In this document: positions 29,897 to 57,233 of the stretch, in pieces
Layout of the letters: each line of letters begins with the position of its first letter
How positions within the stretch are numbered: the stretch's first letter is position 1
Notes under the pieces: generated by a model
The model's input: the letters and a program-made list of their open reading frames with translations, nothing else
What the model was told of the DNA's origin: nothing
The model's database searches: none
Made by a program: the position numbers and the translations under genes
Source: Blautia sp.
GTDB lineage: Bacteria; Bacillota; Clostridia; Lachnospirales; Lachnospiraceae
Direction of reading: 5' to 3'
DNA length: 64,000 nt
Assembly (NCBI GenBank): GCA_026169535.1
Contig: JAPFCU010000079.1
Coordinates: 124,001-188,000, forward strand

Positions 29897-29913
29897 AATA
29901 CAAAATTTTTTAG
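29897..29913. promoter_or_regulatory. 17-mer shared with the ygeX/DUF1015 intergenic region
   Basis: AATACAAAATTTTTTAG occurs here, 28 bp before the -35 box of ssnA, and again, identical, at 51036-51052. Its centre lies about 70 bp before the predicted transcription start, where an activator would bind. Confidence 0.45.
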
Positions 29914-29941
29914 AATAAAAAAATATTTTTAAGATTTACTA

Positions 29942-29970
29942 TTGAAATGGAATAAAAAATGTGATACATT
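29942..29970 (+). promoter_or_regulatory. promoter of the ssnA-ygfK operon
   Basis: TTGAAA (29942-29947), 17-bp spacer, TACATT (29965-29970). The leader is about 75 nt. Confidence 0.65.
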
Positions 29971-30050
29971 AATAGTATAAAATTCCTAAAAGAACTGAAC
30001 GATAACAGAAAGTAGTTAGAAGAATTATACAAGTTAAGGAGGGTTATATT

Positions 30051-31388
30051 ATGCTTATTATTGGTAATGGCAGAATGATTACAAGAGATGCATCCAATCC
30101 TTTTATTGAAAATGGTGCAGTTGCTATGGATGGAAATACAATTGTCATGGTGGGAGAACTGGAGACTGTAAAGGCTGCTTATCCGGATGCGGAATTTATT
30201 GATGCGAAGGGCGGAGTGATCATGCCGGCGTATATTAACGCTCATGAGCATATTTACAGTGCTTTTGCCAGAGGTCTGAGCATTAAAGGATACAACCCAC
30301 AGGGATTTCTGGATATACTTGATGGACAATGGTGGACCATCGACCGTCATCTGACACTGGAACAGACAAAATTGTCTGCATATGCCACATACATTGATTC
30401 TATTAAAAACGGTGTGACAACTGTATTTGACCATCATGCAAGCTTCGGACATATCACAGGTTCCCTGTTTGCAATTGAGGAGGCTGCAAAGGATCTGGGA
30501 ATTCGTACCTGTCTCTGCTATGAGATCTCAGACCGTGACGGTATGGAGAAATCCAGAGAATCTGTAATGGAAAACGTAAACTTTATCAAACATGCTCTTG
30601 CAGATGACAGCGATATGATTGCAGGAATGATGGGTATGCATGCATCCTTTACCATTTCTGATGAAACCATGGCTCTGTGCAATGAGCTGAAACCGGAAGG
30701 TGTTGGTTATCATATTCATGTGGCAGAAGGAATCTATGATCTTCATCAGTGCCTGAAAGAGCACAGCAAACGGATTGTGGACCGCCTTTATGACTGGAAT
30801 ATCCTTGGACCAAAAACTCTTCTGGGTCACTGTATCTATATCAATGAGCATGAAATGGATCTTATCAAAGATACAGATACCATGGTGGTACATAATCCGG
30901 AATCTAATATGGGCAATGCCTGCGGATGTCCTCCAACCATGGCACTGGTTCACAAGGGGGTTCTTACCGGTCTTGGTACAGACGGCTACACCCATGATAT
31001 GACAGAATCCTGGAAGGTGGCAAACATTCTGCATAAACATCATCTCTGCGATCCGAACGCTGCATGGGGAGAGGTTCCGCAGATGCTGTTTGAAGGAAAT
31101 GCAAAGATTGCAAACCGTTACTTTAAAAAAGAACTGGGCGTTCTGAAAAACGGTGCGGCAGCAGATGTGATCGTTGTTGACTATGATCCTTTGACACCGA
31201 TGCGTGCGGATAATGTAAACGGACATCTTCTTTTCGGTACTACAGGAGCAATGGTGCAGACTACCGTATGTAACGGAAAGGTTCTGATGAAAGACCGTGA
31301 AGTTCTTGTCTGTGACGAGGCGAAGATGATGGCGGATTGCCGTCAGGCTGCAAAAGAGCTTGCTGACGACATTAACGCTGGTAAATAA
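30051..31388 (+). CDS. ssnA: SsnA-type amidohydrolase (purine aminohydrolase family)
   Basis: The 445-residue protein is a metal-dependent amidohydrolase related to guanine deaminase and chlorohydrolases: HxH at His65/His67 (NAHEHIYS), HIHVAEG, LGHCIYI and the metal-binding Asp in LGTDGYTHD. Its length and sequence match the SsnA proteins found beside ygfK and xanthine dehydrogenase genes. In gut-bacterial urate degradation it is one of the genes reported as required; the exact reaction (deamination or ring hydrolysis) is not settled by the sequence. A GGAGG site precedes the ATG, and ygfK follows after 31 nt. Confidence 0.93.
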   Translation: MLIIGNGRMITRDASNPFIENGAVAMDGNTIVMVGELETVKAAYPDAEFIDAKGGVIMPAYINAHEHIYSAFARGLSIKGYNPQGFLDILDGQWWTIDRHLTLEQTKLSAYATYIDSIKNGVTTVFDHHASFGHITGSLFAIEEAAKDLGIRTCLCYEISDRDGMEKSRESVMENVNFIKHALADDSDMIAGMMGMHASFTISDETMALCNELKPEGVGYHIHVAEGIYDLHQCLKEHSKRIVDRLYDWNILGPKTLLGHCIYINEHEMDLIKDTDTMVVHNPESNMGNACGCPPTMALVHKGVLTGLGTDGYTHDMTESWKVANILHKHHLCDPNAAWGEVPQMLFEGNAKIANRYFKKELGVLKNGAAADVIVVDYDPLTPMRADNVNGHLLFGTTGAMVQTTVCNGKVLMKDREVLVCDEAKMMADCRQAAKELADDINAGK

Positions 31389-31419
31389 ATATAGAACTAT
31401 CATCTGGGAGGTAAAAACA

Positions 31420-34419
31420 ATGAGTGAAAAAATGACCTGTATGTCCTTTGGACAGTTAATGGACTGGGTTTTAACTGAGCATAAAGAAAAAAATACTGTA
31501 TTTGGCGTACACAGAGCATATCAGGCAGATACTGCCAAGGCTATGGAGATTTTCGGAAGAAATCTGGAAACGCCTATTGGACCTGCGGCAGGCCCGAACA
31601 CCCAGCTTGCACAGAATATTGTTGCTTCCTATTACGCAGGAGCAAGATTCTTTGAACTGAAGACTGTTCAGAAAATGGACGGAGACGAACTGGCTGCATG
31701 TATCAGCAGACCATGTATCCTTGCAGAAGACGAATGTTATAACTGTGAGTGGTCTACAGAACTTTATGTTCCGCAGGCTATGGGAGAGTATATTAAGGCA
31801 TGGTTCATCCTTCATGTAATGGCAAAGGAATTCGGCCTTGGAGGAACAGACGGATTTCAATTTAACATTTCTGTAGGTTATGACCTTGCAGGCATAAAGG
31901 AGAAAAAGATCGATACCTTTATCAACAGCATGAAAGATGCAAAGGATACAGATATATTCAAAGAATGCAGACAGTGGCTTCTTGATAATGCAGATAAATT
32001 TGAAAAGGTGACAAAAGAAGATATTGAAGCAATTCCTTCAGAAATCTGTAATTCTGCTACAATCTCTACACTTCATGGATGTCCTCCAAATGAGATCGAG
32101 AGTATTGCAAATCATCTTTTTAAAGAAAAACACCTGAACACCTTTATTAAATGTAATCCGACTCTTCTTGGCTATGAATTTGCAAGAAAGACCATGGATG
32201 ACATGGGCTACGATTACATGATGTTTGGTGATTTCCACTTTAAGGATGACCTTCAGTATAAGGATGCCATTCCGATGTTCAAACGTCTTCAGGCTCTGGC
32301 AGATGAGCTGAACCTTGCCTTTGGCGTTAAGATCACAAACACCTTCCCGGTAGACGTGACCAGAAATGAGCTTCCAAGCGAAGAAATGTATATGTCCGGA
32401 AAATCTCTATTCCCGCTTTCTATTTCTCTGGCAGCCATGCTTTCCAGAGAATTTGACGGAAAACTGCGTATTGCATATTCCGGTGGTGCAGACTTCTATA
32501 ACATTGACAGAATCGTAGGCTGCGGTGTATGGCCAGTAACAGTTGCCACAACAATCCTCAAGACCGGAGGATATCAGAGATTCACCCAGATGGCAAAAAA
32601 GGTTATGGCAGACGGTGTGAAACCATGGACAGGAATTGACGTAGAGGCTCTGGAAAAACTTGCTGAGGATGCAAAAAAAGATCCTCATCATGTAAAGAAT
32701 ATCAAACCTCTTCCAAACAGAAAGAGCGATGAGACAGTTCCTCTTCTGAACTGCTATTTTGCTCCATGTCAGGGAGGATGTCCAATCCATCAGGATATTC
32801 CGGAATATATCGCGCTTGCAGGAGAAGAGAAATATGCGGAAGCTCTCCGTGTGATCCTTGACAAAAATGCGCTTCCGTTTATTACAGGTACTCTGTGCGC
32901 GCATAACTGCATGTATAAATGTACCAGAAATTTCTATGAAGAATCTGTAAATATCCGCGGAACCAAACTTCTTGCAGCGGAAAAAGGTTATGATGAAGTG
33001 ATCGGAGAGATCCATGCAGGAGAGAGAAATAGTAAGAAGGTTGCCATCGTAGGCGGCGGCCCTGCAGGTATTGCAGCAGCTTATTTCCTTGCAAGAGCAG
33101 GCGCTTCTGTTACAATTTTTGAAAAAGAAGCCAAACTTGGTGGTGTGATCCGTTATGTGATCCCGGGATTCCGTATTCCGGAAGCAGCTATTGACAAAGA
33201 TATTTCCTTTATCGAAAAAATGGGCGTGGAGATCCGCACGAATACAGAGATAACTTCTGTGGCAGATATCAAAGCAGAAGGATATGATGCGGTGATCCTT
33301 GCAACAGGTGCAAACAAACCTGGCACACTGAAACTGGAAAAAGGGGAAACAGTAAATGCTCTGAAATTCCTGGCAGACTTTAAGGCAAATGACGGTAAGG
33401 TTGACCTTGGAAAGAACGTAGTTGTTATTGGCGGCGGTAATACAGCCATGGATACTGCAAGAGCAGCCAAACGCACCGAAGGCGTTGAGCATGTTTATCT
33501 GGTATACAGAAGGACCAAACGCTATATGCCTGCTGCAGAAGATGAGCTTCTGGAGGTTCTGGAAGAAGGAGTAGAATTTAAAGAACTCCTTTCTCCGGTA
33601 AGTCTGGAAAACGGAACTCTGATCTGCAAGAAGATGGAGCTTGGCGCTGTGGACGCTTCCGGAAGAGCCGGTGTAACAGAGACAGACGAGATCGTTGAGG
33701 TACCTGCAGATACTGTGATCGTAGCAGTTGGTGAAAAAGTTCCTACAGAGTTCTATGAAGCAAACGGTATCAATGTAAATGAAAGAGGAAAAGCAAAACT
33801 GAATCAGGAAACTCTGGAAACCAGTGTGAAAGACGTATATCTGGCAGGTGACGGAGCAAAAGGCGCTGCTACCATCGTTGAGGCGATCCGCGATGTACAG
33901 ATCGTTGCAAAAGCAATTCTGGGTACCTCTGTTGTTTCTGACAGAGCAGTTACCGGTACAGACGCAGAATGCTACGAAAAGAAAGGTATTCTGAAAGAAG
34001 AGAAAGAAGCTGAAAAAGAAAGTCAGAGATGTCTTTCCTGCAGCAAAGTCTGCGAGAACTGTGTAGATGTATGTCCAAACAGAGCAAATATTTCCATTAA
34101 GGTTCCCGGAATGGAAATGGCACAGGTGATCCATGTAGATTATATGTGTAATGAATGCGGTAACTGTAAGACCTTCTGCCCATATGCAAGCGCTCCTTAT
34201 AAAGACAAATTTACACTGTTTGCAAAGGCTGAGGACATGGATGACAGTACAAACGACGGTTTCGCCGTACTGAATGCAGAAACAAAGGAATGCAGAGTAA
34301 GATTCCTTGGAAACACCACAGACTGCAAAGTTGACGATCCGGCAGACACTGTTCCGGCAGGAATCCGCGACCTGATCCTGGCTGTGATCAATGACTATTC
34401 CTATCTGTTGTACAAATAA
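31420..34419 (+). CDS. ygfK: YgfK, multidomain iron-sulfur flavoprotein oxidoreductase
   Basis: The ATG at 31420, after GGGAGG, is preferred over an upstream in-frame start inside ssnA. The 999-residue protein has a dihydroorotate-dehydrogenase-like barrel (about 1-430), a GltD-type [4Fe-4S] region (Cys from about 445), an FAD site (GGGPAGIAAA, about 544), an NAD(P) site (GGGNTAMD, about 671) and a C-terminal ferredoxin domain (Cys groups near 870 and 909). The database name 'putative selenate reductase subunit' is misleading. In purine clusters it probably passes electrons between NAD(P)H or ferredoxin and a purine intermediate. It follows ssnA in one operon. Confidence 0.95.
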   Translation: MSEKMTCMSFGQLMDWVLTEHKEKNTVFGVHRAYQADTAKAMEIFGRNLETPIGPAAGPNTQLAQNIVASYYAGARFFELKTVQKMDGDELAACISRPCILAEDECYNCEWSTELYVPQAMGEYIKAWFILHVMAKEFGLGGTDGFQFNISVGYDLAGIKEKKIDTFINSMKDAKDTDIFKECRQWLLDNADKFEKVTKEDIEAIPSEICNSATISTLHGCPPNEIESIANHLFKEKHLNTFIKCNPTLLGYEFARKTMDDMGYDYMMFGDFHFKDDLQYKDAIPMFKRLQALADELNLAFGVKITNTFPVDVTRNELPSEEMYMSGKSLFPLSISLAAMLSREFDGKLRIAYSGGADFYNIDRIVGCGVWPVTVATTILKTGGYQRFTQMAKKVMADGVKPWTGIDVEALEKLAEDAKKDPHHVKNIKPLPNRKSDETVPLLNCYFAPCQGGCPIHQDIPEYIALAGEEKYAEALRVILDKNALPFITGTLCAHNCMYKCTRNFYEESVNIRGTKLLAAEKGYDEVIGEIHAGERNSKKVAIVGGGPAGIAAAYFLARAGASVTIFEKEAKLGGVIRYVIPGFRIPEAAIDKDISFIEKMGVEIRTNTEITSVADIKAEGYDAVILATGANKPGTLKLEKGETVNALKFLADFKANDGKVDLGKNVVVIGGGNTAMDTARAAKRTEGVEHVYLVYRRTKRYMPAAEDELLEVLEEGVEFKELLSPVSLENGTLICKKMELGAVDASGRAGVTETDEIVEVPADTVIVAVGEKVPTEFYEANGINVNERGKAKLNQETLETSVKDVYLAGDGAKGAATIVEAIRDVQIVAKAILGTSVVSDRAVTGTDAECYEKKGILKEEKEAEKESQRCLSCSKVCENCVDVCPNRANISIKVPGMEMAQVIHVDYMCNECGNCKTFCPYASAPYKDKFTLFAKAEDMDDSTNDGFAVLNAETKECRVRFLGNTTDCKVDDPADTVPAGIRDLILAVINDYSYLLYK

Positions 34420-34510: not shown

Positions 34511-37075
34511 ATGTTCAGTTTTTATGTAAATGGAAAAGAATATCAGGAAGAGCAGGATATGAAACTTCTCCGTTTCCTTCGCGACAGACTCCACCTTACT
34601 TCGGTAAAAGACGGTTGCAGCGAAGGCGCCTGCGGAACCTGTCATGTGCTGATCGATGGAAAACCGCAAAAAGCCTGTATTCCCTCTCTTTCTATGATGG
34701 AAGGCCGACATATACTTACTGTAGAAGGATTTTCAGAAGAAGAAAAAGAGATTTATGACCGTGCCTTTGGAGAGGCAGGGGCAGTGCAGTGCGGCTTCTG
34801 TATACCGGGTATGGTCATTAGTGCCAAAGGTCTGATCGACCAGAATCCAGATCCTACCCGTGCTCAGGCAGCTCATGCGATCCGAAATAATATCTGCCGC
34901 TGTACAGGATACAAAAAGATCATTGACGGTATCCTGCTTGCTGCAAAATACAAAAGAGAAGGGCTTCCTGAGAAAAAAGAATATACATGGAAACTGGGAG
35001 ACCGTGTTCCCAGAGTGGATGTCCGCGAAAAGGTTCTGGGTTACGGACAGTATCCGGACGATGTTTACGAAGAGGACATGATCTATGGAAGCGCTCTTCG
35101 TTCCGCTTATCCAAGAGCACTTGTAAAATCTATTGATACGGAGAAAGCAAAGGCTCTTCCGGGAGTGGTCGGCGTATTTACTGCAGAAGACATTCCGGGA
35201 AGCGTAAAGGTAGGTCATCTGAAACAGGACTGGGATGGTCTGATCCCCGTTGGCAAGATCACCCATTATCTGGGAGATGCCATTGCACTTGTGGCGGCAG
35301 AGACTCCGGAAATTGTAGAAAAAGCAAAGAAACTTATCAAGATAGAATATGAAGAACTTCCCATGGTCCGTGATCCCTATGAAGCTATGAAGGAAGATGC
35401 GCCTCTGGTGCATGGGGATGGAAATCTTCTTGCTCACTGGCATGTACATCGTGGGGATGCAGATAAAGCGATTGAAGAATCTAAATATGTACTTAGTGAA
35501 AAATTCCATACACCATGGACAGAACATGCCTTTCTGGAGCCGGAATGCGCGGTAGCTAAACCGGACGGAGAGGACGGTGTGATCATTTATTCTACAGACC
35601 AGGGCGTATACGATACACAGCATGAATGTATGGCGTTTCTGGGACTTCCTGCGGAAAAAGTAAAGGTACGCAATAAACTGGTAGGAGGCGGATTTGGCGG
35701 AAAAGAAGATGTGACTGTTCAGCATCATGCCGGAATGATTGCTTATCTTACCAAACGTCCGGTGAAGGTAAAACTTACCAGAGAGGAAAGCATCCTGATT
35801 CATCCCAAGCGTCACCCTATGGATATGGAATTTACTATGGGCTGTGATGAAAACGGAATCATCCGGGGAGTAAAAGCCACAGTTATTGCTGATACGGGAG
35901 CATATGCATCTCTTGGAGGCCCGGTACTTCAGAGAGCGTGTACACATGCCTCCGGTCCTTACAATTACCAGAATTTTGACATTGATGGAAAGGCATATTA
36001 TACAAACAATCCGCCGGCAGGCGCCTTCCGGGGATTTGGCGTGACACAGACTTGCTTCGGCGTGGAAATGCTGTTGACAAAAATGGCGGAAAAAGTGGGG
36101 ATTTCTCCATGGGAGATCCGTTACCGCAATGCTATCCGCCCAGGCCAGGAGCTTCCTAACGGTCAGCTGGTAGATGATTCTACAGGGCTTGCAGAAACGC
36201 TGGAAGCAGTGAAAGATGTTTACGAAAGCCATCCTTATGCCGGAATTGCCTGTGCAATGAAAAACGCCGGAGTGGGTGTAGGACTTCCGGATTGGGGACG
36301 CTGTAAATTATATGTCCATGACGGAAGAGTAGAAATCCATTCCGGAGCCTCCTGCATCGGTCAGGGACTTGGAACGGTACTGGTACAGATGGTAACAGAA
36401 CAGCTTGGACTGAAACGGAATCAGATCTATTATGATGCTTCCAATACCTATAACGCACCGGATTCCGGAACTACTTCCGGATCCCGTCAGACTCTTGTTA
36501 CCGGTGAAGCGTGCCGTCGGGCATGTGAGAAGCTTCGCGAAGATCTGAAAGAAAAAAGCCTTCAGGAACTGGAAGGTTGTGAGTATCTGGGAGAATATCT
36601 GGCAAAGACAGACGCAATGGGATCCGATGTAAAAAATCCCGTTTCTCATGTGGCTTACGGTTATGCAACTCAGGTATGTATCCTGGATAAAAATGGAAAG
36701 ATTGAAAAAATTGTTGCAGCCCATGATGTAGGCCGTGCGGTGAATCCTCTTTCTGTGGAAGGACAGATCGAGGGCGGCGTGGTAATGTCAGCAGGCTTTG
36801 CTCTTACAGAGGAGTATGGGCTGAAGGACTGCAAACCTCAGAATAAATATGGTACACTCGGTCTTTTCCGTGCCAACCAGGCGCCGGAAGTAGAAAGCAT
36901 CATTGTGGAAAAAGAAGGGCTGAAAGTAGCGGAGGGAGCTATCGGTATCGGCGAGATCACTTCTATCCCTACAGCGCCGGCTATTGCAGGAGCATATTAT
37001 AAATATGACGGACAGTACCGTACCAGCCTTCCTCTTGTAAATACACCATATGAAAGAAAAAAGAAGGGGGAATGA
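34511..37075 (+). CDS. selenium-dependent xanthine dehydrogenase, fused iron-sulfur and molybdenum chain
   Basis: The 854-residue chain fuses a two-cluster [2Fe-2S] domain (Cys36, 41, 44, 56 and Cys94, 97, 129, 131) to a complete molybdopterin hydroxylase domain. GGGFGGKED (about 392), FRGFG and a late GIGEIT (about 812-817, with the catalytic Glu) mark the active site. No FAD domain is present. This matches the family annotated as selenium-dependent xanthine dehydrogenase, whose Mo site carries a labile selenium rather than a selenocysteine. A TAGGAGG site precedes the ATG. The polyferredoxin gene follows after 3 nt, and the Se/Mo maturation genes yqeB and yqeC lie downstream. Confidence 0.94.
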   Translation: MFSFYVNGKEYQEEQDMKLLRFLRDRLHLTSVKDGCSEGACGTCHVLIDGKPQKACIPSLSMMEGRHILTVEGFSEEEKEIYDRAFGEAGAVQCGFCIPGMVISAKGLIDQNPDPTRAQAAHAIRNNICRCTGYKKIIDGILLAAKYKREGLPEKKEYTWKLGDRVPRVDVREKVLGYGQYPDDVYEEDMIYGSALRSAYPRALVKSIDTEKAKALPGVVGVFTAEDIPGSVKVGHLKQDWDGLIPVGKITHYLGDAIALVAAETPEIVEKAKKLIKIEYEELPMVRDPYEAMKEDAPLVHGDGNLLAHWHVHRGDADKAIEESKYVLSEKFHTPWTEHAFLEPECAVAKPDGEDGVIIYSTDQGVYDTQHECMAFLGLPAEKVKVRNKLVGGGFGGKEDVTVQHHAGMIAYLTKRPVKVKLTREESILIHPKRHPMDMEFTMGCDENGIIRGVKATVIADTGAYASLGGPVLQRACTHASGPYNYQNFDIDGKAYYTNNPPAGAFRGFGVTQTCFGVEMLLTKMAEKVGISPWEIRYRNAIRPGQELPNGQLVDDSTGLAETLEAVKDVYESHPYAGIACAMKNAGVGVGLPDWGRCKLYVHDGRVEIHSGASCIGQGLGTVLVQMVTEQLGLKRNQIYYDASNTYNAPDSGTTSGSRQTLVTGEACRRACEKLREDLKEKSLQELEGCEYLGEYLAKTDAMGSDVKNPVSHVAYGYATQVCILDKNGKIEKIVAAHDVGRAVNPLSVEGQIEGGVVMSAGFALTEEYGLKDCKPQNKYGTLGLFRANQAPEVESIIVEKEGLKVAEGAIGIGEITSIPTAPAIAGAYYKYDGQYRTSLPLVNTPYERKKKGE

Positions 37076-37078: not shown

Positions 37079-37543
37079 ATGGCAAGATTTCCAAAAAAGA
37101 CGGCCTATGTTGCATGTAACGGCGGGGAACGCTGTCAGAGCTGTTCCTATGGCTGTATGACTTGTTCCTCCTGCATGGAGGCCTGCAGAAAGGATGCTGT
37201 TTTTTATAATGCATATGGGGTGGCTGAAATAGATGAAACCAAATGTATTGGCTGTGGCCTTTGTGTGAAAGCATGTCCCCAGGATATCATTCACATTCAT
37301 CTCACGGATAATCCGTTCCTTGTGAAATGTTCCAATAAGGATAAGGGAGCGGTGGCGAGGAAGGTCTGTGAAGTCAGCTGTATCGGCTGTGGGATCTGTG
37401 CAAAAAACTGTCCGGCAGATGCAGTTGCAGTTACAGACAATGTTGTAGCGATCAATGACGAGCTTTGTCTTGCCTGTGGAAACTGTGCTGTAAAATGTCC
37501 GCGGAATGTGATTGCAGATACACGTGGGATTATTTTAAAATAA
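37079..37543 (+). CDS. polyferredoxin, electron partner of the fused xanthine dehydrogenase
   Basis: The 154-residue protein has about 20 cysteines: an unusual N-terminal group (Cys13, 19, 22, 26, 29, 32, 36), two standard [4Fe-4S] motifs (Cys56-66 and Cys130-140) and a third (Cys101-111, with an extra Cys97). It resembles the ferredoxin part of RnfB-like proteins and lacks membrane spans. Its tight coupling to an FAD-less xanthine dehydrogenase suggests that electrons from purine oxidation go to this protein and then to ferredoxin, hydrogenase or YgfK rather than to NAD. Confidence 0.9.
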   Translation: MARFPKKTAYVACNGGERCQSCSYGCMTCSSCMEACRKDAVFYNAYGVAEIDETKCIGCGLCVKACPQDIIHIHLTDNPFLVKCSNKDKGAVARKVCEVSCIGCGICAKNCPADAVAVTDNVVAINDELCLACGNCAVKCPRNVIADTRGIILK

Positions 37544-37801: not shown

Positions 37802-40078
37802 ATGGTTGGAAAGAGTATTCCAAGAGTAGATGCTTATGAAAAAGTTACAGGAAGAGCAAAGTTTACAGATGATTTGATTCTTGACCGATGCCTGGTTGCC
37901 AAGATCCTTCATTCTACCATTGGAAACGGGATTGTAACATCTATCGACACCAGTGAGGCGGAGGCACTTCCAGGTGTGGTAAAGGTGGTTACCTTTCAGG
38001 ATGTGCCGGATCATTGTTATCCTACACCGGGACATCCGTGGTCTGTAGAGCCGGCTCATCAGGATATAGCAGACAGAAATATTCTTACCGGACGTATCCG
38101 CTACTATGGGGATGATATTGCAGCAGTGGTGGCAGAGGATGAAGTGACTGCATCCCGTGCACTGAAGCTGATCAAAGTAGAATATGAAGAATATCCGGTG
38201 GAAATTCACCCGCGTAAATCCATGTATGGAAGCAACCCGCCTATTCACTTTGATAAAAAAGACAACGTATTGGCACGTTCAAACTTTTTTATCGGGGATG
38301 TCGACAAGGGGCTGGAGGAATCTGAAACTGTTGTAAAAAGAAGCTATAAAACTCCGATCGTACAGCATTGTCATATTGAAAACCCGATTTCCTTTGCCTA
38401 TATGGAAAAGGGAAGGGTTGTGGTAGTTACTTCCACTCAGATTCCCCATATTGTAAGGCGTGTGATCGGTCAGGCTCTGGGTATTCCCTGGGGCAGGGTA
38501 AGAGTGATTAAACCTTATATTGGCGGAGGCTTCGGAAACAAACAGGATGTGCTGTATGAGCCGCTGAACGCTTTTTTGACGATGCAGGTGGGAGGCCGTC
38601 CGGTGAAGCTGGATATTTCCAGAGAAGAGACGTTCCGAAATACCAGAACACGTCACTCAATTGAATATGATCTGACTGCGGGAGTAGATAAAGATGGACG
38701 TCTTGTGGCAAAAGAGATGAACGCATACTCTAATCAGGGTGCTTATGCTTCTCATGGTCATGCAATTGCTGCCAATGGATTAACCGCCTGGAGACTGCAG
38801 TATGCCTGCCCGAATATAAGAGGAGAAGCGTATACCATTTATACAAACAGCCCGACAGCAGGCGCTATGCGTGCTTACGGAATTCCGCAGGCTGCTTTTG
38901 CTATTGAGTGCTTTATGGATGATATAGCAAAAGAAATCCATATGGATCCGCTGGAATTCCGAAAGAAAAACCTGATCCACGGATACTATGAGGACGCATA
39001 CCTGAAACCGATCGCCGCAAATACAAATGGTATTTTTGAATGTCTGGAAAAGGGTGCTGAATATATACACTGGGATGAAAAACGGAAAGAATATGCGGAT
39101 CAGACAGGGGATATCCGAAGAGGTGTCGGTGTTTCTGTATTTTCATATAAGACAGGTGTATGGCCTATTTCTCTGGAAATTGCAGGTTGCCGCCTTTCTC
39201 TTAACCAGGACGGAAGCGTACAGATGCAGATTGGCGCTACAGAGATCGGGCAGGGAGCAGATACGGTATTTTCTCAGATGGCGGCAGAGACTCTTCATAT
39301 GGATGTAGAAAATATTCATATTGTGACGGTACAGGATACAGATGTAACACCATTTGATACAGGTGCTTATGCGTCCAGACAGTCTTTTGTTACCGGAACT
39401 GCAGTAAAACAGTGTGCAGAACTGCTTTATGATAAAATCCTTGCCTATGCAAAGACGCTTCTGCCAGAGCAGGAGACCAGAGAACTGTCTATGGATCATG
39501 GGTGGATCTATGCGGGAGATGAAGAGGCAATTTCTCTGGAGGCAGTTGCACAGGAGGCGTACTACAGTCTTTCAAATTCTTCGGTACTTACCGCAGAGGT
39601 TTCTACCCAGGTAAAGAAAAACACACTTGCTTCCGGCTGCTGTTTTGCAGAGGTGGAAGTAGATATGAAACTGGGAACGATCAAGATCCTTCATATTATC
39701 AATGTCCATGACAGCGGAAAACTTCTGAATCCTCAGCTGGCAGAGATGCAGGTGCATGGAGGCATGTCCATGGGTATGGGCTATGGAATCAGCGAGCAGA
39801 TCGTGCTGGATGAAAAAACAGGCAGGATGCTGAACGGCAACCTTCTTGACTATAAACTTATGACAGCTCTGGATACACCGGACATTAAAGCAGATTTTGT
39901 GGAGCTTGACGATCCTGAGGGACCATACGGAAACAAGGCTCTTGGAGAGCCGCCTGCAATTCCGGGAGCACCTGCTATCCGAAATGCAGTTCTTCACGCA
40001 ACAGGCGTGGCATTTAATGAGAATCCTCTCACACCTCAGAAACTGATCGATGGATTCAAAAAAGCCGGACTGATCTGA
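37802..40078 (+). CDS. xdhA: xanthine dehydrogenase, molybdenum-binding subunit
   Basis: The 758-residue protein is the large Mo subunit of a three-part purine hydroxylase, like E. coli XdhA. IGGGFGNKQD (about 240), MRAYGIPQ and ALGEPPAIPGAP (about 713-724, with the catalytic Glu near 716) form the molybdopterin site. It has no iron-sulfur or FAD domain; these come from the next two genes. AAGGTGAAGAG precedes the ATG at 37802. It heads xdhA-xdhB-xdhC-yqeB-yqeC/mocA, which all lie within 30 nt of one another. Confidence 0.94.
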   Translation: MVGKSIPRVDAYEKVTGRAKFTDDLILDRCLVAKILHSTIGNGIVTSIDTSEAEALPGVVKVVTFQDVPDHCYPTPGHPWSVEPAHQDIADRNILTGRIRYYGDDIAAVVAEDEVTASRALKLIKVEYEEYPVEIHPRKSMYGSNPPIHFDKKDNVLARSNFFIGDVDKGLEESETVVKRSYKTPIVQHCHIENPISFAYMEKGRVVVVTSTQIPHIVRRVIGQALGIPWGRVRVIKPYIGGGFGNKQDVLYEPLNAFLTMQVGGRPVKLDISREETFRNTRTRHSIEYDLTAGVDKDGRLVAKEMNAYSNQGAYASHGHAIAANGLTAWRLQYACPNIRGEAYTIYTNSPTAGAMRAYGIPQAAFAIECFMDDIAKEIHMDPLEFRKKNLIHGYYEDAYLKPIAANTNGIFECLEKGAEYIHWDEKRKEYADQTGDIRRGVGVSVFSYKTGVWPISLEIAGCRLSLNQDGSVQMQIGATEIGQGADTVFSQMAAETLHMDVENIHIVTVQDTDVTPFDTGAYASRQSFVTGTAVKQCAELLYDKILAYAKTLLPEQETRELSMDHGWIYAGDEEAISLEAVAQEAYYSLSNSSVLTAEVSTQVKKNTLASGCCFAEVEVDMKLGTIKILHIINVHDSGKLLNPQLAEMQVHGGMSMGMGYGISEQIVLDEKTGRMLNGNLLDYKLMTALDTPDIKADFVELDDPEGPYGNKALGEPPAIPGAPAIRNAVLHATGVAFNENPLTPQKLIDGFKKAGLI

Positions 40079-40094: not shown

Positions 40095-40979
40095 ATGTAT
40101 GATATTGAAAATTACTATAATGCAAAATCTGTTGAGGAGGCAGCGGCTCTTCTGAAGGAGCATCCGGATACCCGGATCATTTCCGGGGGAAGCGATGTTC
40201 TGATCAAGATCCGGGAAGGAAAGATGGCGGGAACCTCGCTTGTCTGTATCCGAGATATTAAAGAAATACAGGGTGTAAGCAAAAAAGACAACGGAGATAT
40301 TTATATTGGAGCGGGAACGACTTTTTCACATATTACCAATGATCCCATCATACAGGAGTGTATTCCGGTTCTTGGAGAAGCAGTAGACCAGGTTGGAGGT
40401 CCTCAGATCCGCAATATCGGCACGATTGGAGGAAACATCTGTAATGGTGCAGTCAGCGCAGACAGTGCCCCTACGGTATTTTCCCTGAATGCTCTTCTTC
40501 GTATTGAAGACGGAAACGGCGGAAGAACAGTTCCGGTAAAAGAGTTTTATCTGGGACCGGGCCGTGTAGATCTGAAGAGAGGAGAAATTCTGACTCATGT
40601 GATCATTCCGGCAGAAGAATATCAGGGATATCGAGGTCATTATATAAAATATTCTATGCGTAAAGCCATGGATATCGCTACTCTGAGCTGTTCTGTGGTA
40701 AGCAGAGTAAATATGGAAAAAAACATACTGGAAGATGTACGTATTACTTTTGGCGTAGCGGCTCCGGTACCTTTCCGATGTGAAAAAACAGAAGCTGCTT
40801 TAAAGGGGATGTCTGTCAGCGAAGAACTGTATCAGACAATAGAAGAAAGCGTTCGTCAGGAAATCAGTCCCAGAGATTCCTGGAGGGCCTCCAGAGAATT
40901 TCGTCTCCAGATTGGCGGAGAGATTGCAAAAAGGGCACTGATCCGCACTGTAGAGCTTGCAGGAGGTGACAGACAATGA
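40095..40979 (+). CDS. xdhB: xanthine dehydrogenase, FAD-binding subunit
   Basis: The 294-residue protein has the vanillyl-oxidase-like FAD fold of Mo hydroxylase medium subunits: ISGGSDVLIKIREG near residue 31, IGAGTTF, and GGPQIRNIGTIGGNICN with the conserved Gly-rich flavin loop, then a C-terminal CO-dehydrogenase flavoprotein domain. It should pass electrons from the iron-sulfur subunit to NAD or another acceptor. It overlaps xdhC by 4 nt. Confidence 0.95.
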   Translation: MYDIENYYNAKSVEEAAALLKEHPDTRIISGGSDVLIKIREGKMAGTSLVCIRDIKEIQGVSKKDNGDIYIGAGTTFSHITNDPIIQECIPVLGEAVDQVGGPQIRNIGTIGGNICNGAVSADSAPTVFSLNALLRIEDGNGGRTVPVKEFYLGPGRVDLKRGEILTHVIIPAEEYQGYRGHYIKYSMRKAMDIATLSCSVVSRVNMEKNILEDVRITFGVAAPVPFRCEKTEAALKGMSVSEELYQTIEESVRQEISPRDSWRASREFRLQIGGEIAKRALIRTVELAGGDRQ

Positions 40980-47062: not shown

Positions 47063-48256
47063 TTATTTAAGGATTCTCGGCGCTGCTTTTACTTCCAGTT
47101 TTTTGAGGATATCCTGAGGTTTCTCAAACTTGGACAGCATAATCATAGCGGCGATTACATATGGTTTAAAGCTTGCTTCTTTATAAAGCGGGATTCTGTA
47201 GCGGTCAAATACACTTGCATCAACTTCGCCTGTCTCGCAGCTTACGCCTGTGATGTCAGCCGGCAGGCAGTGGAGATAGAGTGCTTTACCGTCTTTTGTT
47301 GTTTTCATAAGCTCTTCGGTACAAGCCCAGTCTTTGTGCTGTGCGTTCTGAGCAAGAAGCTCTTTTTCCAGTTTGTCGATCCCGTCGAAATCGCCTTCGC
47401 CGTAAAGATCGGTACGTTTTTCCATAGCTGCGAAAGGAGCCCAGCTCTTCGGATAAACGATATCAGCATCCTTGAATGCTTCTTCCATGCTGTTTGTCTT
47501 TGTGAAGGAACCGCCGGTAGCTTCAGCATTTTTCTTTGCGATCTCTTCGATTTCAGGCATTACGTCATATCCTTCCGGATGAGCAAGGACAACGTCCATA
47601 CCGAAACGTGTCATAAGACCGATAACACCCTGAGGAACAGAAAGCGGTTTTCCGTAGGAAGGAGAGTATGCCCATGTCATGGCAAGCTTTTTGCCTTTCA
47701 GGTTTTCAACACCGCCGAATTCATGGATGATGTGGAGCATATCAGCCATACACTGTGTCGGATGGTCAACGTCACACTGAAGGTTTACAAGAGTCGGTCT
47801 CTGCTCCAGGATACCGTCGTTATTTCCCTCTGTTACAGCGTCCATAAACTCTTTCTGGTAAGCATGTCCTTTGCCGATATACATATCATCACGGATACCG
47901 ATCACATCAGCCATAAAGGAAACCATGTTTGCAGTTTCACGAACTGTTTCACCATGAGCGATCTGAGATTTTTTCTCATCCAGATCCTGAACTTCAAGAC
48001 CAAGAAGGTTGCATGCAGATGCAAAAGAGAAACGTGTTCTGGTAGAGTTGTCACGGAAGATAGAGATTCCAAGACCGCTTTCGAATACTTTGGTGGAAAT
48101 ATTGTTTTCCCTCATGAAACGAAGAGCGTCAGCAACGGTAAATACAGCCTCAAGCTCGTCATCTGTCTTATCCCATGTCCAGAAGAAATCGTTGTTGTAC
48201 ATTTCTTTGAAGTTAAGGCTGTTTAATTTGTCGATATAATCCTGTAATGTTTTCAT
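47063..48256 (-). CDS. ygeW: YgeW, knotted carbamoyltransferase-family protein
   Basis: The 397-residue protein belongs to the aspartate/ornithine carbamoyltransferase superfamily: STRTR (71-75) binds carbamoyl phosphate, HPTQ lies in DVDHPTQCMAD, and HCLP in YLHCLPADITG. The YgeW branch is not a normal ornithine or aspartate enzyme; its substrate is not firmly established, and in this setting it probably cleaves a carbamoyl (ureido) group with phosphate to give carbamoyl phosphate and 2,3-diaminopropionate or a relative. It is in the order ygeX-ygeY-ygeW-arcC, the classical cluster order. Confidence 0.95.
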   Translation of the reverse strand: MKTLQDYIDKLNSLNFKEMYNNDFFWTWDKTDDELEAVFTVADALRFMRENNISTKVFESGLGISIFRDNSTRTRFSFASACNLLGLEVQDLDEKKSQIAHGETVRETANMVSFMADVIGIRDDMYIGKGHAYQKEFMDAVTEGNNDGILEQRPTLVNLQCDVDHPTQCMADMLHIIHEFGGVENLKGKKLAMTWAYSPSYGKPLSVPQGVIGLMTRFGMDVVLAHPEGYDVMPEIEEIAKKNAEATGGSFTKTNSMEEAFKDADIVYPKSWAPFAAMEKRTDLYGEGDFDGIDKLEKELLAQNAQHKDWACTEELMKTTKDGKALYLHCLPADITGVSCETGEVDASVFDRYRIPLYKEASFKPYVIAAMIMLSKFEKPQDILKKLEVKAAPRILK

Positions 48257-48340: not shown

Positions 48341-49651
48341 TCACTTGCAGTAGGAAGCTGGAAGTGCAGCGTAAACGGCAGCACATCTTACCAGGTCGAT
48401 TTTCCATGTTTTTTCGTTTGGAGCATGAGCCTGTGCCTCGGCGCCCGGTCCGAAACCGATGCACGGGATTCCATTACGTCCCATAATAGAAACACCGTTT
48501 GTAGAGAAAGTCCACTTATCTGTAAGAGGACGGGCCTTTCTCATTGCCTCTGTCTCAGCATTTCCAAGTCTTGTTTCACCGTAAAGATTCTTATAAGCAT
48601 CCTCGAGTGCTTTTGTTACCTTGTGATCTTTTGGAATTGCCCATGTGGGGAAGTAGCATTCAATCTCATATACACATCCGGTGTAGGATGGACGGTCATA
48701 GTTGTACATGGAAACAACAACGTCATCGCCGTATTTCTGAACGCTTGGCAGAGCACGGATCTCGTCCAGACAGCTTTCCCATGTTTCGCCAAAGGTCATA
48801 CGCCTGTCAAGAGACACTGCACAGGAGTCTGCAACTGCACAGCGGCTTGGAGAGGTGTAGAAGATCTGGGAGCAGGTAACAGTACCGCGTCCAAGGAATC
48901 TTGCCTCTTCCCAGTCCGGATTGTATTTTGGATTCAGCATTTTTACAAGACCTTTGATTTCGGTTTCATCAGCATCATCGTTTTCGTTAAGAGCACGAAC
49001 ATCCTGAAGGATATCAGCCATTTTGTAGATTGCGTTGTCACCGCGTTCCGGAGCAGAACCGTGGCAAGAAACACCTTTGACATCAATGCGGATTTCCATA
49101 CGTCCGCGCTGTCCTCTGTAGATGCCGCCGTCAGTTGGTTCTGTGGAAACTACGAATTCCGGACGAACTTTATCTTCGTTGATGATGTACTGCCAGCAGA
49201 GACCGTCGCAGTCTTCTTCCTGAACGGTTCCAACAACCATGATCTTGCAGCCTTCCGGGATCAGATCCAGGTCTTTCATGATTCTTGCACCGTAAACAGC
49301 AGATACAAGTCCGCCGCACTGGTCAGATACACCGCGGCCGCCAATCTCTTCATCTGTTTCATAGCCGTCGTAAGGATCGAATGTCCAGTTTTCAATGTTT
49401 CCGATACCTACGGTATCGATATGTGCATCATAAGCAATAATCTTGTCACCGGTACCCATGTATCCGATAACGTTGCCCTGAGGATCGATCACAACCTCGT
49501 CAAAGTCCAGCTTTTTCATCTCGGCAGCAATTGTTTCGATGTGTGCTTTTTCATCGCAGCTTTCTCCCGGTTTTTTTACGATAGCCCGTAAAAATCTGGT
49601 CATATCCTCCAGATAATTCTGAGCAGCTTCGTTTATTCTTGCATAGTCCAT
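48341..49651 (-). CDS. ygeY: YgeY, M20 family metallohydrolase
   Basis: The 436-residue protein is a two-domain M20 peptidase/deacylase: YDAHIDTVG (His77, Asp79), [10 protein letters not shown] with the bridging Asp, and [10 protein letters not shown] with the catalytic Glu, then a dimerisation domain and the C-terminal metal site. M20 enzymes cut amide bonds of small acyl or carbamoyl amino acids. In the urate cluster it is among the genes reported as required, probably acting on a ureido or acyl intermediate before YgeW. GGGAGG is upstream. Confidence 0.94.
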
Positions 49652-49713: not shown

Positions 49714-50943
49714 TTATCTGCTTAAGGATTCGTCTGTTCCATAAAGACCGTCCCATACGATTTCGCGATAGCGGACAGGATCGGTATCACCCTCTGTAGA
49801 GATCACAAGAACATTGGAGTTTTCGTCCAGCTTCAATGCTTCCTTAAGATCAGCTGCATCTGCATCATGAAGCGCTGTATAACAAAGTCCAAGAGGAACG
49901 GAACCGGATTCACCGGAAACGATATGCGGGTCATTTTCCAGAGGATTCGCATAAATTCTGGTTGCTTTTGCACTCATCCAGTCCGGACAAGATGCAAATA
50001 CAGTTACATGATTTCGTAAAATATCCCATCCGATAGTATTTCCCTCACCGCAGGCAAGACCGGCCATAATGGTCTGAAGATCTCCGGTAACGTTTACAAG
50101 CTCGCCGGTTTTTTTTATGGCAGAACGATAGAGACAGTCCGCAGCGCCGGCTTCACAAACTACCATAACCGGAGGATTTTCTTTGTATTTGTTGGCAAAG
50201 TATCCGACAACCGCGCCTGCCAGAGAGCCGACACCTGCCTGTACAAACACATGGGTCGGACGATCGATGCCCTGTTCCTTCAGCTGCTGGTCCGCCTCTC
50301 TTACCATAGTGCCGTAACCCTGCATGATCCAGGAAGGGATTTCTTCATAACCATCCCATGCTGTATCCTGAACGATGATACCGTGTTCTGTTTTGGAAGC
50401 TTCTGCAGCAGCCATTCTTACACAGTCGTCATAGTTGCATTCTTCTATGGTAACAGCAGCACCTTCTTTGGCAATGTTGTCAAATCTTGTTTTTGTGGTT
50501 CCCTTCGGCATTCTTACAACCGCTTTCTGACCCAGACGGTTGGCAGCCCATGCAACGCCTCGTCCGTGATTTCCGTCGGTGGCAGTAAAGAAAGTTGCCT
50601 GACCGAATTCTTCTCTTAATTTTTCAGAAGAAAGAACGTTGAAAGGAAGCTCGCTGATGTCACGTCCAAGTTCTTTTGCAATATAGCGTCCCATTGCGTA
50701 GGAACCGCCCAGAACCTTAAATGCGTTTAAGCCAAAACGATAAGATTCATCTTTACAGAAAATATTTTTTACTCCAAGATAGGATGCAAGAGCGGAAAGC
50801 TTCTGGAGTGGAGTTACTGTATACTGTGGGAAGCTTTTGTGAAATTCATTTGCTTTTGCTACATTTTCCTCGGACATCAGATCCAGGAATTTATCATCAG
50901 ATTTTGGTATCTGATTCACAGTCCATTTTAATCCTTTCGTCAT
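49714..50943 (-). CDS. ygeX: diaminopropionate ammonia-lyase
   Basis: YgeX is a PLP enzyme that splits 2,3-diaminopropionate into pyruvate and two ammonia. The 409-residue sequence has the PLP Lys76 in LNAFKVLGG, TDGNHGRGVAW, and a Gly-rich phosphate loop region (QAGVGSLAGAV), typical of the fold-type II family. AAGGAGGG precedes the ATG. It is first in the ygeX-ygeY-ygeW run and delivers pyruvate, so it links purine carbon to PFOR and fermentation. Confidence 0.97.
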   Translation of the reverse strand: MTKGLKWTVNQIPKSDDKFLDLMSEENVAKANEFHKSFPQYTVTPLQKLSALASYLGVKNIFCKDESYRFGLNAFKVLGGSYAMGRYIAKELGRDISELPFNVLSSEKLREEFGQATFFTATDGNHGRGVAWAANRLGQKAVVRMPKGTTKTRFDNIAKEGAAVTIEECNYDDCVRMAAAEASKTEHGIIVQDTAWDGYEEIPSWIMQGYGTMVREADQQLKEQGIDRPTHVFVQAGVGSLAGAVVGYFANKYKENPPVMVVCEAGAADCLYRSAIKKTGELVNVTGDLQTIMAGLACGEGNTIGWDILRNHVTVFASCPDWMSAKATRIYANPLENDPHIVSGESGSVPLGLCYTALHDADAADLKEALKLDENSNVLVISTEGDTDPVRYREIVWDGLYGTDESLSR

Positions 50944-51030: not shown

Positions 51031-51035
51031 TAGAA

Positions 51036-54952: not shown

Positions 54953-55029
54953 AAGATCCCCGGTAAACGAATGAGAGGATTTCTGGTAAGTATCAGAAAA
55001 ATATCATTCATTTGCCGGGGGATTTTTAT
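54951..55029. terminator. bidirectional terminator between kinase-like and regulator genes
   Basis: A long imperfect stem (54951-54974 with 55004-55027) has an A run on one side and a T run on the other, between converging genes. Confidence 0.8.
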
Positions 55030-55682
55030 TTATTTACATCAATATAACTGTAAAGTGTATACTTGGAAATTCCGAAATAATTAGCAACCTTGTCACCAGA
55101 CTTGGTGATCAGGAAAGCACCGGAATCATTCAGGAACTGGATGGCAGTTACTTTGTCATCTTTGTTCATCAGAGCCACAGGTTTTCCTACAAGAGCTACA
55201 GATTCTTCAATCAGATGATCCAGAAGATCATTGACATTATGGGTGATCTCCTTTGGTTTTTCTTCTGTGTTTACAGGTGTCACCAGATCATGAAGCGCAC
55301 TTTCAACCATGGTCAGTCTGGAAATATCATAATTGATACCAAATACATAGTGCAGACTTCCGTCATCATCACGGATATAGGAGGTGCTGCACTTAAGAAT
55401 CTTGCCGTCAGAGGTTTTCATTAAATAACCGGCATGATCTTTTAAATCATCAGGATGGATATCATCCGGGTTTTTGTTTTTGTGGATATGACGGATCACA
55501 TCAAAAACTGCATTGGATGGTCCGTCTCCAACCCCTCTGTTTGTTACATGACCGTTTTCAATATATACGATGGAAGTTTCCGGATCATTTGTTTTCAGGT
55601 CATGTATGACTACCTCGCAGTCAGGACCGAACTGACAGGCAATATCGTGAGCAATCTGTTTTAATACAGTAAGCCGTCCCAT
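55026..55682 (-). CDS. YheO-type PAS/helix-turn-helix transcriptional regulator
   Basis: The 218-residue protein has an N-terminal YheO-like PAS domain (about 5-125; GPDCEVVIHDL, GHVTNRGVGD, SYIRDDDGSLHYVFGINYD) and a C-terminal helix-turn-helix (about 165-218; KSGDKVANYFGISKYTLYSYI). Such regulators (DauR is one) sense a small molecule through the PAS domain. It is transcribed away from hyuA, at the edge of the purine island, which makes it the prime candidate for controlling the island. A relative of the shared 17-mer lies in the intergenic space at 55750-55766. Confidence 0.92.
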   Translation of the reverse strand: MGRLTVLKQIAHDIACQFGPDCEVVIHDLKTNDPETSIVYIENGHVTNRGVGDGPSNAVFDVIRHIHKNKNPDDIHPDDLKDHAGYLMKTSDGKILKCSTSYIRDDDGSLHYVFGINYDISRLTMVESALHDLVTPVNTEEKPKEITHNVNDLLDHLIEESVALVGKPVALMNKDDKVTAIQFLNDSGAFLITKSGDKVANYFGISKYTLYSYIDVNK

Positions 55683-55749
55683 ATACTTACCTCCTCCTTT
55701 TTCTTATCTCTAATATAACATAATAAAATGAAAATAAAAAGTTTTTTTA

Positions 55750-55766
55750 CGAAAAAATTTATGTAA
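55750..55766. promoter_or_regulatory. imperfect copy of the shared 17-mer between regulator and hyuA
   Basis: CGAAAAAATTTATGTAA matches the reverse complement of AATACAAAATTTTTTAG with one inserted base and a few changes. Its centre is about 80 bp before the hyuA transcription start. Confidence 0.3.
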
Positions 55767-55801
55767 GCCTGAATAATTTTGAATCTGTGCCGGTGAAAAG
55801 G

Positions 55802-55830
55802 TTGAAGGAAAGAGAAAAGAATGGTATATT
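55802..55830 (+). promoter_or_regulatory. promoter of hyuA
   Basis: TTGAAG (55802-55807), 17-bp spacer, TATATT (55825-55830), giving a leader of about 23 nt. Confidence 0.65.
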
Positions 55831-55859
55831 GAAAAAAACAGAAATTGGGGGTTGATCTT

Positions 55860-57233
55860 ATGAAATTTTTGCTGAAAAATGGTACAGTTGTTTCTGGAGA
55901 AGGATGCAGACAGGAAGATGTTTTGATCGATGGCGAAAAGATTGTTAAAGTAGGCAGAAATCTGGAAGCTGAGGGAGCGGAAATCCTGGATGCAGCCGGC
56001 AAGCTTCTTTTTCCGGGCTTTATTGACGGACACACCCATTTTGATCTGGAAGTGGCGGGAACAGTTACAGCAGATGATTTTGAAACCGGAACAAGGGCGG
56101 CTCTCCTTGGAGGAACTACTTTTGTGATTGATTATGCATCACAGGATAAAGGCGGTCACACCTTAAAGGAAGGGCTGAAAAAGTGGCATGACAAGGCTGA
56201 TGGAAAATGCTCCTGTGATTATTCTTTTCACATGTCTGTAGTTGAATGGAATTCAGAAACAGAAGCAGAAATCCAGGAGATGATCGATGAGGGTATTACA
56301 AGCTTTAAACTTTATATGACATATCCGGCTATGATTGTCGATGACTGTGACCTTTATAAGATTCTGAAAAAACTGGGACAGTGCGGCTGCTTTGCAGGTG
56401 TTCATTGTGAGAATGCAGGTGTGATCGATGCATTGATAGCGGAAGCAAAGAAGGAAGGACGCCTGGGGCCGGAAAATCATCCACTGGTTCGGCCGGATAC
56501 CATGGAGGCAGAGGCTGTTCACAGACTATTGGCAATTGCAAAAGAAGCAGATGCTCCGGTTATGATTGTTCATCTTACAAACAAAAAAGCCTATGAGGAA
56601 GTGATGGCTGCAAGAGAAAAAGGTCAGACAGTCTATGCGGAAACCTGTCCTCAGTATCTGCTTCTGGAGGACAGTGTTTATTCTAAACCGGATTTTGAGG
56701 GGGCTGTTTATGTATGTGCACCACCTATCCGTAAAAAAGAAGATCAGGACTGTTTGTGGGAAGCACTTGGAAAAGAAGAAATTCAGACTGTTGCTACAGA
56801 CCAGTGCAGCTTCAGCTTAGAGCAAAAAGCATTAGGCAGAGAGGATTTTACGAAGATTCCGGGGGGACTTCCAGGAGTGCAGACACGAGGAACACTTCTT
56901 TATACGTACGGGGTCCGGGAAGGAAAGATCACGGAAGCCCAGATGTGCAAGCTGTTAAGTGAAAATCCGGCAAAACTTTACGGTGTTTATCCAAGAAAAG
57001 GTGTGATCCAGCCTGGAAGCGATGCAGATATTGTCATTCTGGATCCTTCTAAGGAAGATGTGATCTCTGCCAAAACCCATGCATATAATACAGATAACAA
57101 CCCATTTGAAGGCTTTAAGCTTGGCTGTACGATTGATGACGTATTCTTAAGAGGCCATCACGCAGTAGAAGAAGGAAAACTGAAAGAAGAAAAATTGGGA
57201 ACCTTTATCCGGAGACAAAAAAATATGCTGTAA
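55860..57233 (+). CDS. hyuA: dihydropyrimidinase / hydantoinase family amidohydrolase
   Basis: The ATG at 55860 with a GGGGG site is preferred over the TTG at 55845. The 457-residue protein is a cyclic amidohydrolase: DGHTHFD gives metal ligands His58 and His60, SFKLYM gives the Lys150 that is carboxylated in this family, with later His in GVHCENA and IVHLTN and the Asp in ATDQCSF. It opens cyclic amides such as dihydropyrimidines or hydantoins. In purine-degrading bacteria hyuA belongs to the set reported as required for urate use, so the substrate is likely an imidazole or pyrimidine ring intermediate. Confidence 0.93.
   Translation: MKFLLKNGTVVSGEGCRQEDVLIDGEKIVKVGRNLEAEGAEILDAAGKLLFPGFIDGHTHFDLEVAGTVTADDFETGTRAALLGGTTFVIDYASQDKGGHTLKEGLKKWHDKADGKCSCDYSFHMSVVEWNSETEAEIQEMIDEGITSFKLYMTYPAMIVDDCDLYKILKKLGQCGCFAGVHCENAGVIDALIAEAKKEGRLGPENHPLVRPDTMEAEAVHRLLAIAKEADAPVMIVHLTNKKAYEEVMAAREKGQTVYAETCPQYLLLEDSVYSKPDFEGAVYVCAPPIRKKEDQDCLWEALGKEEIQTVATDQCSFSLEQKALGREDFTKIPGGLPGVQTRGTLLYTYGVREGKITEAQMCKLLSENPAKLYGVYPRKGVIQPGSDADIVILDPSKEDVISAKTHAYNTDNNPFEGFKLGCTIDDVFLRGHHAVEEGKLKEEKLGTFIRRQKNML

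Follow-up and report, generated by a model that had tools for sequence, protein, structure and literature searches.

We analyzed a 64,000-nucleotide stretch of DNA from a Blautia sp. of the family Lachnospiraceae, referred to here as the window, in which a cluster of genes for anaerobic purine breakdown surrounds two adjacent genes for bacterial microcompartment (BMC) shell proteins of the BMC-H type, BMC1 and BMC2. The window comprises positions 124001 to 188000 of contig C11 in a 2.6-Mb draft genome (85 contigs, 89.75% complete). Gene families were called from NCBIfam, TIGRFAM, and Pfam profile matches against curated cut-offs; annotation of window positions 1 to 26469 was limited to open reading frames, a tRNA, and an Rfam scan. 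A preliminary description, made from the letters of this stretch, had listed genes from ssnA to hyuA together with the two BMC-H genes. All were present by family matches, each at or very near the place assigned to it, between 30051 and 57233:

30051..31388, plus strand: ssnA, aminohydrolase (NF005540, 671 bits; cut-off, 444)
31420..34419, plus strand: ygfK, flavin/Fe-S reductase (TIGR03315, 1399 bits; cut-off, 835)
34511..37075, plus strand: enzyme of the selenium-dependent xanthine dehydrogenase family, with 2Fe-2S and Mo domains and no FAD domain (TIGR03311, 1320 bits; cut-off, 830)
37079..37543, plus strand: polyferredoxin with several 4Fe-4S motifs (profile matches)
37802..40078, plus strand: xdhA (NF043082, 1225 bits)
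40095..40979, plus strand: xdhB, FAD subunit (NCBIfam match above cut-off)
40976..41470, plus strand: xdhC, 2Fe-2S subunit (NCBIfam match above cut-off)
41474..42292, plus strand: yqeB, selenium-dependent Mo cofactor maturation (NCBIfam match above cut-off)
42307..43662, plus strand: yqeC-mocA fusion, a single 451-aa open reading frame with YqeC and NTP_transf_3 domains
43709..45202, minus strand: MATE transporter, divergent to the shell pair and outside the urate pathway (family match)
45315..45614, plus strand: BMC1, BMC-H shell protein (PF00936, 64.5 bits; cut-off, 24.5), paralog of the first BMC-H of the GRM5 operon
45640..45930, plus strand: BMC2, BMC-H shell protein with pore motif KCGGH (Cys39) (PF00936, 63.4 bits; cut-off, 24.5), paralog of the third BMC-H of the GRM5 operon
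46036..46980, minus strand: arcC, carbamate kinase (TIGR00746, 389 bits)
47063..48256, minus strand: ygeW, carbamoyltransferase (TIGR03316, 801 bits)
48341..49651, minus strand: ygeY, hydrolase (TIGR03526, 657 bits)
49714..50943, minus strand: ygeX, diaminopropionate ammonia-lyase (TIGR03528, 612 bits)
55026..55682, minus strand: YheO-type PAS/HTH regulator (a relative is present in 15 of 20 ygfK islands of other genera)
55845..57233 (first ATG at 55860), plus strand: hyuA, dihydropyrimidinase/phenylhydantoinase type (TIGR02033, 564 bits)

Start positions were adjusted for two of these genes: the listed frame of ygfK opens at 31360, and the ATG at 31420, from which relatives align, was chosen; that of arcC extends to 47028, and the internal ATG at 46980 was chosen. 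The MocA half of the yqeC-mocA fusion scored 125.6 bits with TIGR03310, below the cut-off of 186, while the YqeC half exceeded its own cut-off. The selenium-type xanthine dehydrogenase (854 aa) reached only 237 bits with TIGR03313 (cut-off, 1102), the family to which E. coli XdhD presumably belongs. Between ygeX and hyuA lie genes for a DUF1015 protein, a citrate-type transporter, a cytidylate-kinase-like protein, and the YheO-type regulator, whose recurrence in ygfK islands makes it the likely regulator of this one.

A reductive uric acid pathway was characterized in 2025, with enzyme steps demonstrated on proteins from E. coli or C. difficile (PMC12507026). In the route described there, XdhD converts urate to yanthine, SsnA together with YgfK opens the ring and turns yanthine into ureidomethyl-hydantoin, HyuA yields diureidopropionate, YgeW (or UacY) frees carbamoyl phosphate from diureidopropionate to leave albizziin (3-ureido-2-aminopropionate), and YgeY and then YgeX carry this through diaminopropionate to pyruvate and ammonia. 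According to a commentary, two step orders have been proposed (PMC12990295). Like the E. coli and C. difficile cluster as described (PMC12507026), the window groups ssnA, ygfK, hyuA, ygeW with carbamate kinase, ygeY, and ygeX, next to a molybdenum hydroxylase. It differs in that the Blautia hydroxylase is a TIGR03311 protein, far under the TIGR03313 cut-off, that it has a polyferredoxin beside it and no FAD partner, and that an additional XdhABC is present. This match in membership supports equating the gene set of the island with that of the reductive urate pathway, and the reading of the window as a purine/urate degradation island holds. The route first sketched for it differs from the characterized pathway in a single point: in the latter, YgeW acts on diureidopropionate and gives albizziin before YgeY acts (PMC12507026).

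Judged by family membership, XdhABC in this Blautia would handle xanthine and urate. The 854-aa TIGR03311 enzyme is a likely candidate for the dehydroxylase that would reduce urate to yanthine, perhaps fed by the neighboring polyferredoxin, a possible electron donor by virtue of its position; the two together appear to resemble the ferredoxin-type variant proposed for C. difficile (PMC12507026). YgfK and SsnA would then reduce and open the ring and HyuA would open the hydantoin, after which YgeW would phosphorolyze one ureido group to carbamoyl phosphate, to be converted to ATP by ArcC, YgeY would remove the second ureido group, and YgeX would yield pyruvate and ammonia. The urate pathway itself has already been characterized elsewhere and so is not new here; the island places it in part of the genus Blautia. 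Among 64 genomes of the genus of the window, 38 had ygfK, two of them as partial forms under the cut-off. In genomes G223 (C4, 100570-101904) and G244 (C2, 106230-107564), the YgfK match covers the first 443 of 1012 positions within open frames of 585 to 600 aa, perhaps representing a short form that lacks the FAD half, like UacX. We also compared 20 ygfK regions (approximately 20 kb each) from 20 genomes of other genera, hand-picked as full-length, high-scoring matches among 29 other genomes with ygfK. In these, ssnA was found in 20, ygeX in 18, ygeY in 18, ygeW in 17, arcC in 17, and a selenium-type xanthine dehydrogenase in 15, in differing order.

The minus-strand MATE gene parts BMC1 and BMC2 from yqeC-mocA, and the arcC-ygeW-ygeY-ygeX unit is convergent to them. 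Because these divergent and convergent neighbors bound the pair, gene order places it outside the island operon, in a transcription unit separate from the pathway. The closest named relatives of the BMC shell gene were Lachnospiraceae and Blautia records. With an insufficient shell complement (PF00936 only) and contiguous shell genes, BMC1-BMC2 is a satellite locus by the definition given in PMC4207490.

The only BMC-P found in this genome (∼90% complete) lies on contig C3, in a locus with genes for a glycyl radical enzyme, an activase, a class II aldolase, an aldehyde dehydrogenase, a zinc-type alcohol dehydrogenase, PduL, and PduS, as well as a tandem BMC protein, a DeoR regulator, and the large subunit of a B12 diol dehydratase. 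This gene set matches the published description of GRM5 (PMC4207490; PMC6325248), with PduCDE in addition, and by that description the C3 compartment would serve the use of fucose and rhamnose. The C3 locus (L032, 447-18487) thus combines a glycyl radical enzyme with a B12 diol dehydratase, whose large subunit was identified by Pfam and whose small subunits, like the reactivase, were named by eye; the two enzymes are perhaps alternative propanediol dehydratases. Two further satellites were seen in the same genome. One, on C48 (L033, 8887-16581), is a permuted, PduU-like pair accompanied by PduV, with three alpha-L-fucosidases only a few genes away; the other is a tandem BMC close to an end of contig C63.

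The preliminary description had proposed that the shell proteins enclose some of the purine steps and had named, as the outcome that would tell against this, relatives in which shell genes and purine genes occur apart. That is the outcome we obtained. Of 122 BMC1 relatives, 80 were kept as loci, and 25 of these (L035-L058 and L104, some from metagenome-assembled genomes [MAGs]) were classed as Blautia-like. Core purine genes occurred in the fetched flanks of 18/25 Blautia-like loci and in 0/55 of the others, 38 of which have at least 5 kb of flank on each side. Reciprocally, a profile search detected no BMC gene in any of the 20 ygfK regions of other genera; the profile, built from window and C3 proteins, found BMC genes in all 7 control regions, 5 of which (L029, L030, L031, L033, and L034) are independent of it. 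Of the 64 genomes of the genus, 24 carried both the pair and ygfK, 12 had the pair without ygfK, 14 had ygfK without the pair, and 14 had neither (Fisher P = 0.21). The corresponding counts in the high-quality subset of 31 genomes, as read from rounded values (34 genomes by the program's own count), were 13, 8, 6, and 4 (P = 1.0). Proximity of the pair to ygfK is therefore common in part of the genus, while their presence is independent. On the strength of the locus survey, the BMC-free islands, and the independence within the genus, the shell pair was rejected as a part of the urate island.

What accompanies the pair outside Blautia varies by genus and includes wall hydrolases, flavin reductase, and MATE; clustering of these neighbors yielded no nameable pathway theme. 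Recurrent neighbors across the 80 loci, related to polysaccharide deacetylase (28 loci), HAD hydrolase (22), and 2-hydroxyacid dehydrogenase (21), were found in 0 Blautia-like loci. In L025 (14183-19225), with relatives in L024 and L027, genes related to those for diaminopimelate dehydrogenase, an XdhC-type molybdenum chaperone, and MATE precede the pair (G104, G113, and G148).

Enclosure of urate degradation steps by BMC1 and BMC2 would involve vertices borrowed from the GRM5 compartment. The one BMC-P detected in this genome might then serve both compartments, and the pair is central in the island in part of Blautia. Against this stand, besides the survey results above, the enzymes themselves. 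We compared eight window enzymes with 12 to 20 orthologs each from shell-free islands and found no encapsulation-type terminal extension on SsnA, YgfK, the selenium-type xanthine dehydrogenase, YgeW, YgeY, YgeX, ArcC, or HyuA. On ArcC, an apparent extra 16 to 20 residues precede the internal ATG that is its likely start; YgeX is longer than its orthologs by about 4 to 6 residues N-terminally and 10 to 12 C-terminally. The aldolase, aldehyde dehydrogenase, and alcohol dehydrogenase of the C3 locus bear terminal helix-like stretches of the known kind, as judged by eye. In addition, steps of the pathway have been reproduced in vitro with purified enzymes (PMC12507026). Within the limited literature searches made on microcompartments with urate, purine degradation, or xanthine, we saw no published proposal that the reductive urate pathway is enclosed, and the word "microcompartment" is absent from PMC12507026. 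A urate-degrading organelle would alter the picture of gut urate metabolism; the comparative data lend it no support, and we regard it as improbable. For satellite shell genes, proximity is a poor guide to function.

The pair instead follows GRM5. The genomes of 50 of the 80 loci were checked for BMC-P, and those 50 plus the genome of the window were checked for the GRM5 aldolase and ygfK. The aldolase was present in 48/51 pair carriers (identity, 73 to 100%) and BMC-P in 45/50, whereas ygfK was present in 35/51, two of these under the cut-off. In 46 genomes both the aldolase and BMC-P were found, and in 42 of these the distance between them was 4.3 to 6.6 kb. Five Blautia genomes (G154 and G156-G159) had no ygfK but carried the pair, BMC-P, and the aldolase. 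Among 150 genomes sampled evenly across the family, BMC-P occurred in 7/7 pair carriers versus 32/143 noncarriers (Fisher P = 5 × 10−5) and the GRM5 aldolase in 7/7 versus 21/143 (Fisher P = 4 × 10−6); among aldolase carriers, the association of the pair with ygfK gave P = 0.14. These P values are guides only, since the genomes are related. Ten genomes of this sample matched, and G051, G110, and G144 (52 to 54% identity, multi-BMC loci) were excluded as pair carriers. The aldolase-positive set comprised 28 of 47 listed genomes (at least 71% identity, reaching query residue 244 or beyond [≥244]), with G023, split on two contigs, excluded. In three loci (L072, L079, and L081, the last from Schaedlerella arabinosiphila), the pair lies upstream of the GRM5 operon, about 1.4 to 1.5 kb from its glycyl radical enzyme gene.

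The phylogeny of the shell proteins points the same way. A tree of single-domain proteins (115 rows, 95 columns) drew on 19 operon regions and 16 satellite loci, all chosen by hand, in addition to the window. BMC1 fell inside the clade of the first GRM5 BMC-H and BMC2 inside that of the third, with each satellite clade at 100/100 support. Branching within GRM5 shell families is thus combined with co-occurrence with GRM5. The pair also shares with GRM5 a genome that holds such a locus (PMC4207490; PMC6325248); it differs from GRM5 as described in that BMC1 and BMC2 stand outside the operon and BMC2 has a pore cysteine versus the leucine of the parent family, and the C3 locus adds the B12-dependent PduCDE.

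The same data bear on two further possibilities. The strong differences between genera in the neighborhoods of the pair would suit a general add-on usable by any microcompartment of the cell, its genome position being immaterial; however, 41/50 carriers have a single BMC-P, the GRM5 aldolase is nearly constant among them (48/51), and both proteins branch within GRM5 shell families, so such a general role appears unlikely. A decaying leftover without function might likewise change position from lineage to lineage, as the pair does, but BMC2 directly follows BMC1 in 79/80 loci, the exception (L104) being a fetched contig that ends within BMC1, and the pore cysteine is kept in every aligned BMC2. 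We consider decay very improbable.

Taken together, these results lead us to conclude, with a probability of about 0.86, that two separate systems lie side by side in the window: a cytosolic reductive urate island and a BMC1-BMC2 satellite of a GRM5-type compartment. The island would work in the cytosol, functionally separate from the adjoining shell pair, while BMC1-BMC2 would supply two accessory hexamers to the fucose/rhamnose/1,2-propanediol (GRM5-type) microcompartment encoded on the other contig. The paralogy, the co-occurrence, and the location beside the GRM5 operon in 3/80 loci are direct observations; from them we infer that BMC1 and BMC2 are incorporated into the GRM5 shell. In part of Blautia, this satellite lies within the urate island.

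Several observations weigh against this conclusion. Where genomes of the genus had both the pair and ygfK, the two were within 32 kb of each other in 15/24 (617 kb apart in 1 and on separate contigs in 8), and in 12/25 Blautia-like loci, purine genes of both island halves flank the pair. Seven Blautia-like loci have no core purine genes in the fetched flanks, and three of these (L045-L047) retain yqeC and yqeB nearby. In the 150-genome sample, ygfK was also more frequent with the pair (5/7 carriers versus 25/143; P = 0.004) before conditioning on the aldolase. The pair adjoins the GRM5 operon in only the three loci noted above, and a few carriers gave no GRM5 aldolase (3/51: G160, G177, and G179) or no BMC-P (5/50: the same three plus G152 and G174). 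All five are MAGs with further shell genes, although those of G179 look satellite-only by length and score. Finally, the short alignment behind the tree and the length of its joining branches leave the finer order unsure.

We also considered a known class of locus. A xanthine-utilization locus type had been mentioned in the preliminary description, and one does exist, as the predicted xanthine-utilization microcompartment Xau (PMC6620236), named BUF1 in PMC8156839; its described enzymes, however, differ from those of the island. Xau resembles the Blautia locus in having shell genes and xanthine dehydrogenase in one neighborhood (PMC6620236). Its description lists ring hydrolases, amidohydrolases, a decarboxylase, and formiminoglycine as the product; BUF loci are described as coding for shell-forming proteins. 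That description sets it apart from the Blautia locus, which has two BMC-H only, no BMC-P, and a reductive pathway. A main locus needs both BMC-H and BMC-P (PMC4207490; PMC8217296), and the window locus is without BMC-P. No decarboxylase or formiminotransferase family figured in the matches listed for the island proteins, a result that does not extend to the Amet_4581-4587 sequences, which were not compared. With the sole BMC-P found on C3 and the described Xau enzymes differing, assignment of the pair to Xau/BUF1 was rejected.

The pore of BMC2 was unexpected. In the alignment, Cys39 is present in 80/80 BMC2 rows and His42 in 78/80, while GRM5 parent proteins have Leu and Arg at these positions in 18/18; the BMC2 satellite clade is nested within a GRM5 hexamer family having Leu at the pore position. 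Cys39 aligns with the pore-position cysteine of the first domain of the PduT-like tandem BMC of this genome, and a profile match of BMC2 to the solved tandem BMC protein 3nwg likewise pairs the cysteines. According to the review PMC6325248, a pore cysteine of this kind carries an Fe-S cluster in PduT and probably does so in GrpU, and GrpU is encoded in 0/57 GRM5 loci. BMC2 is like GrpU and PduT in having its cysteine at the aligned central-pore position. It is unlike GrpU in its motif, TKCGGH, in which the GrpU pore motif G-X-C-P-Q-N/H (PMC6325248) is not found, and unlike PduT in being a single rather than a tandem BMC domain. Neither GrpU nor cysteine appears in the main text of the 2021 catalogue, and a literature search on GrpU and microcompartment pore cysteines found PMC6325248 only.

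This conservation suggests that the BMC2 pore may be an Fe-S or metal site, which we offer as a proposal. Tentatively, and at less than even odds, BMC2 could represent an unrecorded class of redox-active hexamer, in which electrons would cross the fucose/propanediol shell by way of an Fe-S cluster or metal in an invariant (Lys/Arg)-Cys-Gly-Gly-(His) pore. If so, a GrpU-like function would be hidden in satellite loci. A bolder extension, drawn solely from proximity, is that the place of BMC2 in the Blautia urate island may couple urate reduction to electrons leaving the GRM5 shell. The conserved cysteine allows a specific and cheap test of electron transfer across fucose/propanediol compartments.

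An AT-rich motif around ACAAnAAAAA was common to the region upstream of BMC1 (window 45115-45294) and that upstream of the C3 glycyl radical enzyme gene. The motif was derived by expectation maximization on 65 nonredundant upstream regions of the pair and refined on 81. Its scores in 9 GRM5 upstream regions exceeded those in 145 upstream regions used as controls (P = 4 × 10−4) and those in shuffles (P = 8 × 10−5). Given its low complexity and the relatedness of the sequences, the motif is weak evidence for a shared upstream element of the pair and the GRM5 operon.

Other genes border the island. Directly upstream lie the cobalamin lower-ligand genes cobT, cobU-like, and cobS (window 26470-28846). 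Beside hyuA are genes for a dicarboxylate symporter (SDF) and a serine-dehydratase-alpha-like protein (57623-60234); relatives of the symporter also occur near the shell pair in 5/80 loci (L037, L046, L047, L090, and L095). Farther downstream, the window encodes the [FeFe] hydrogenase maturases HydE and HydG (60813-63308).

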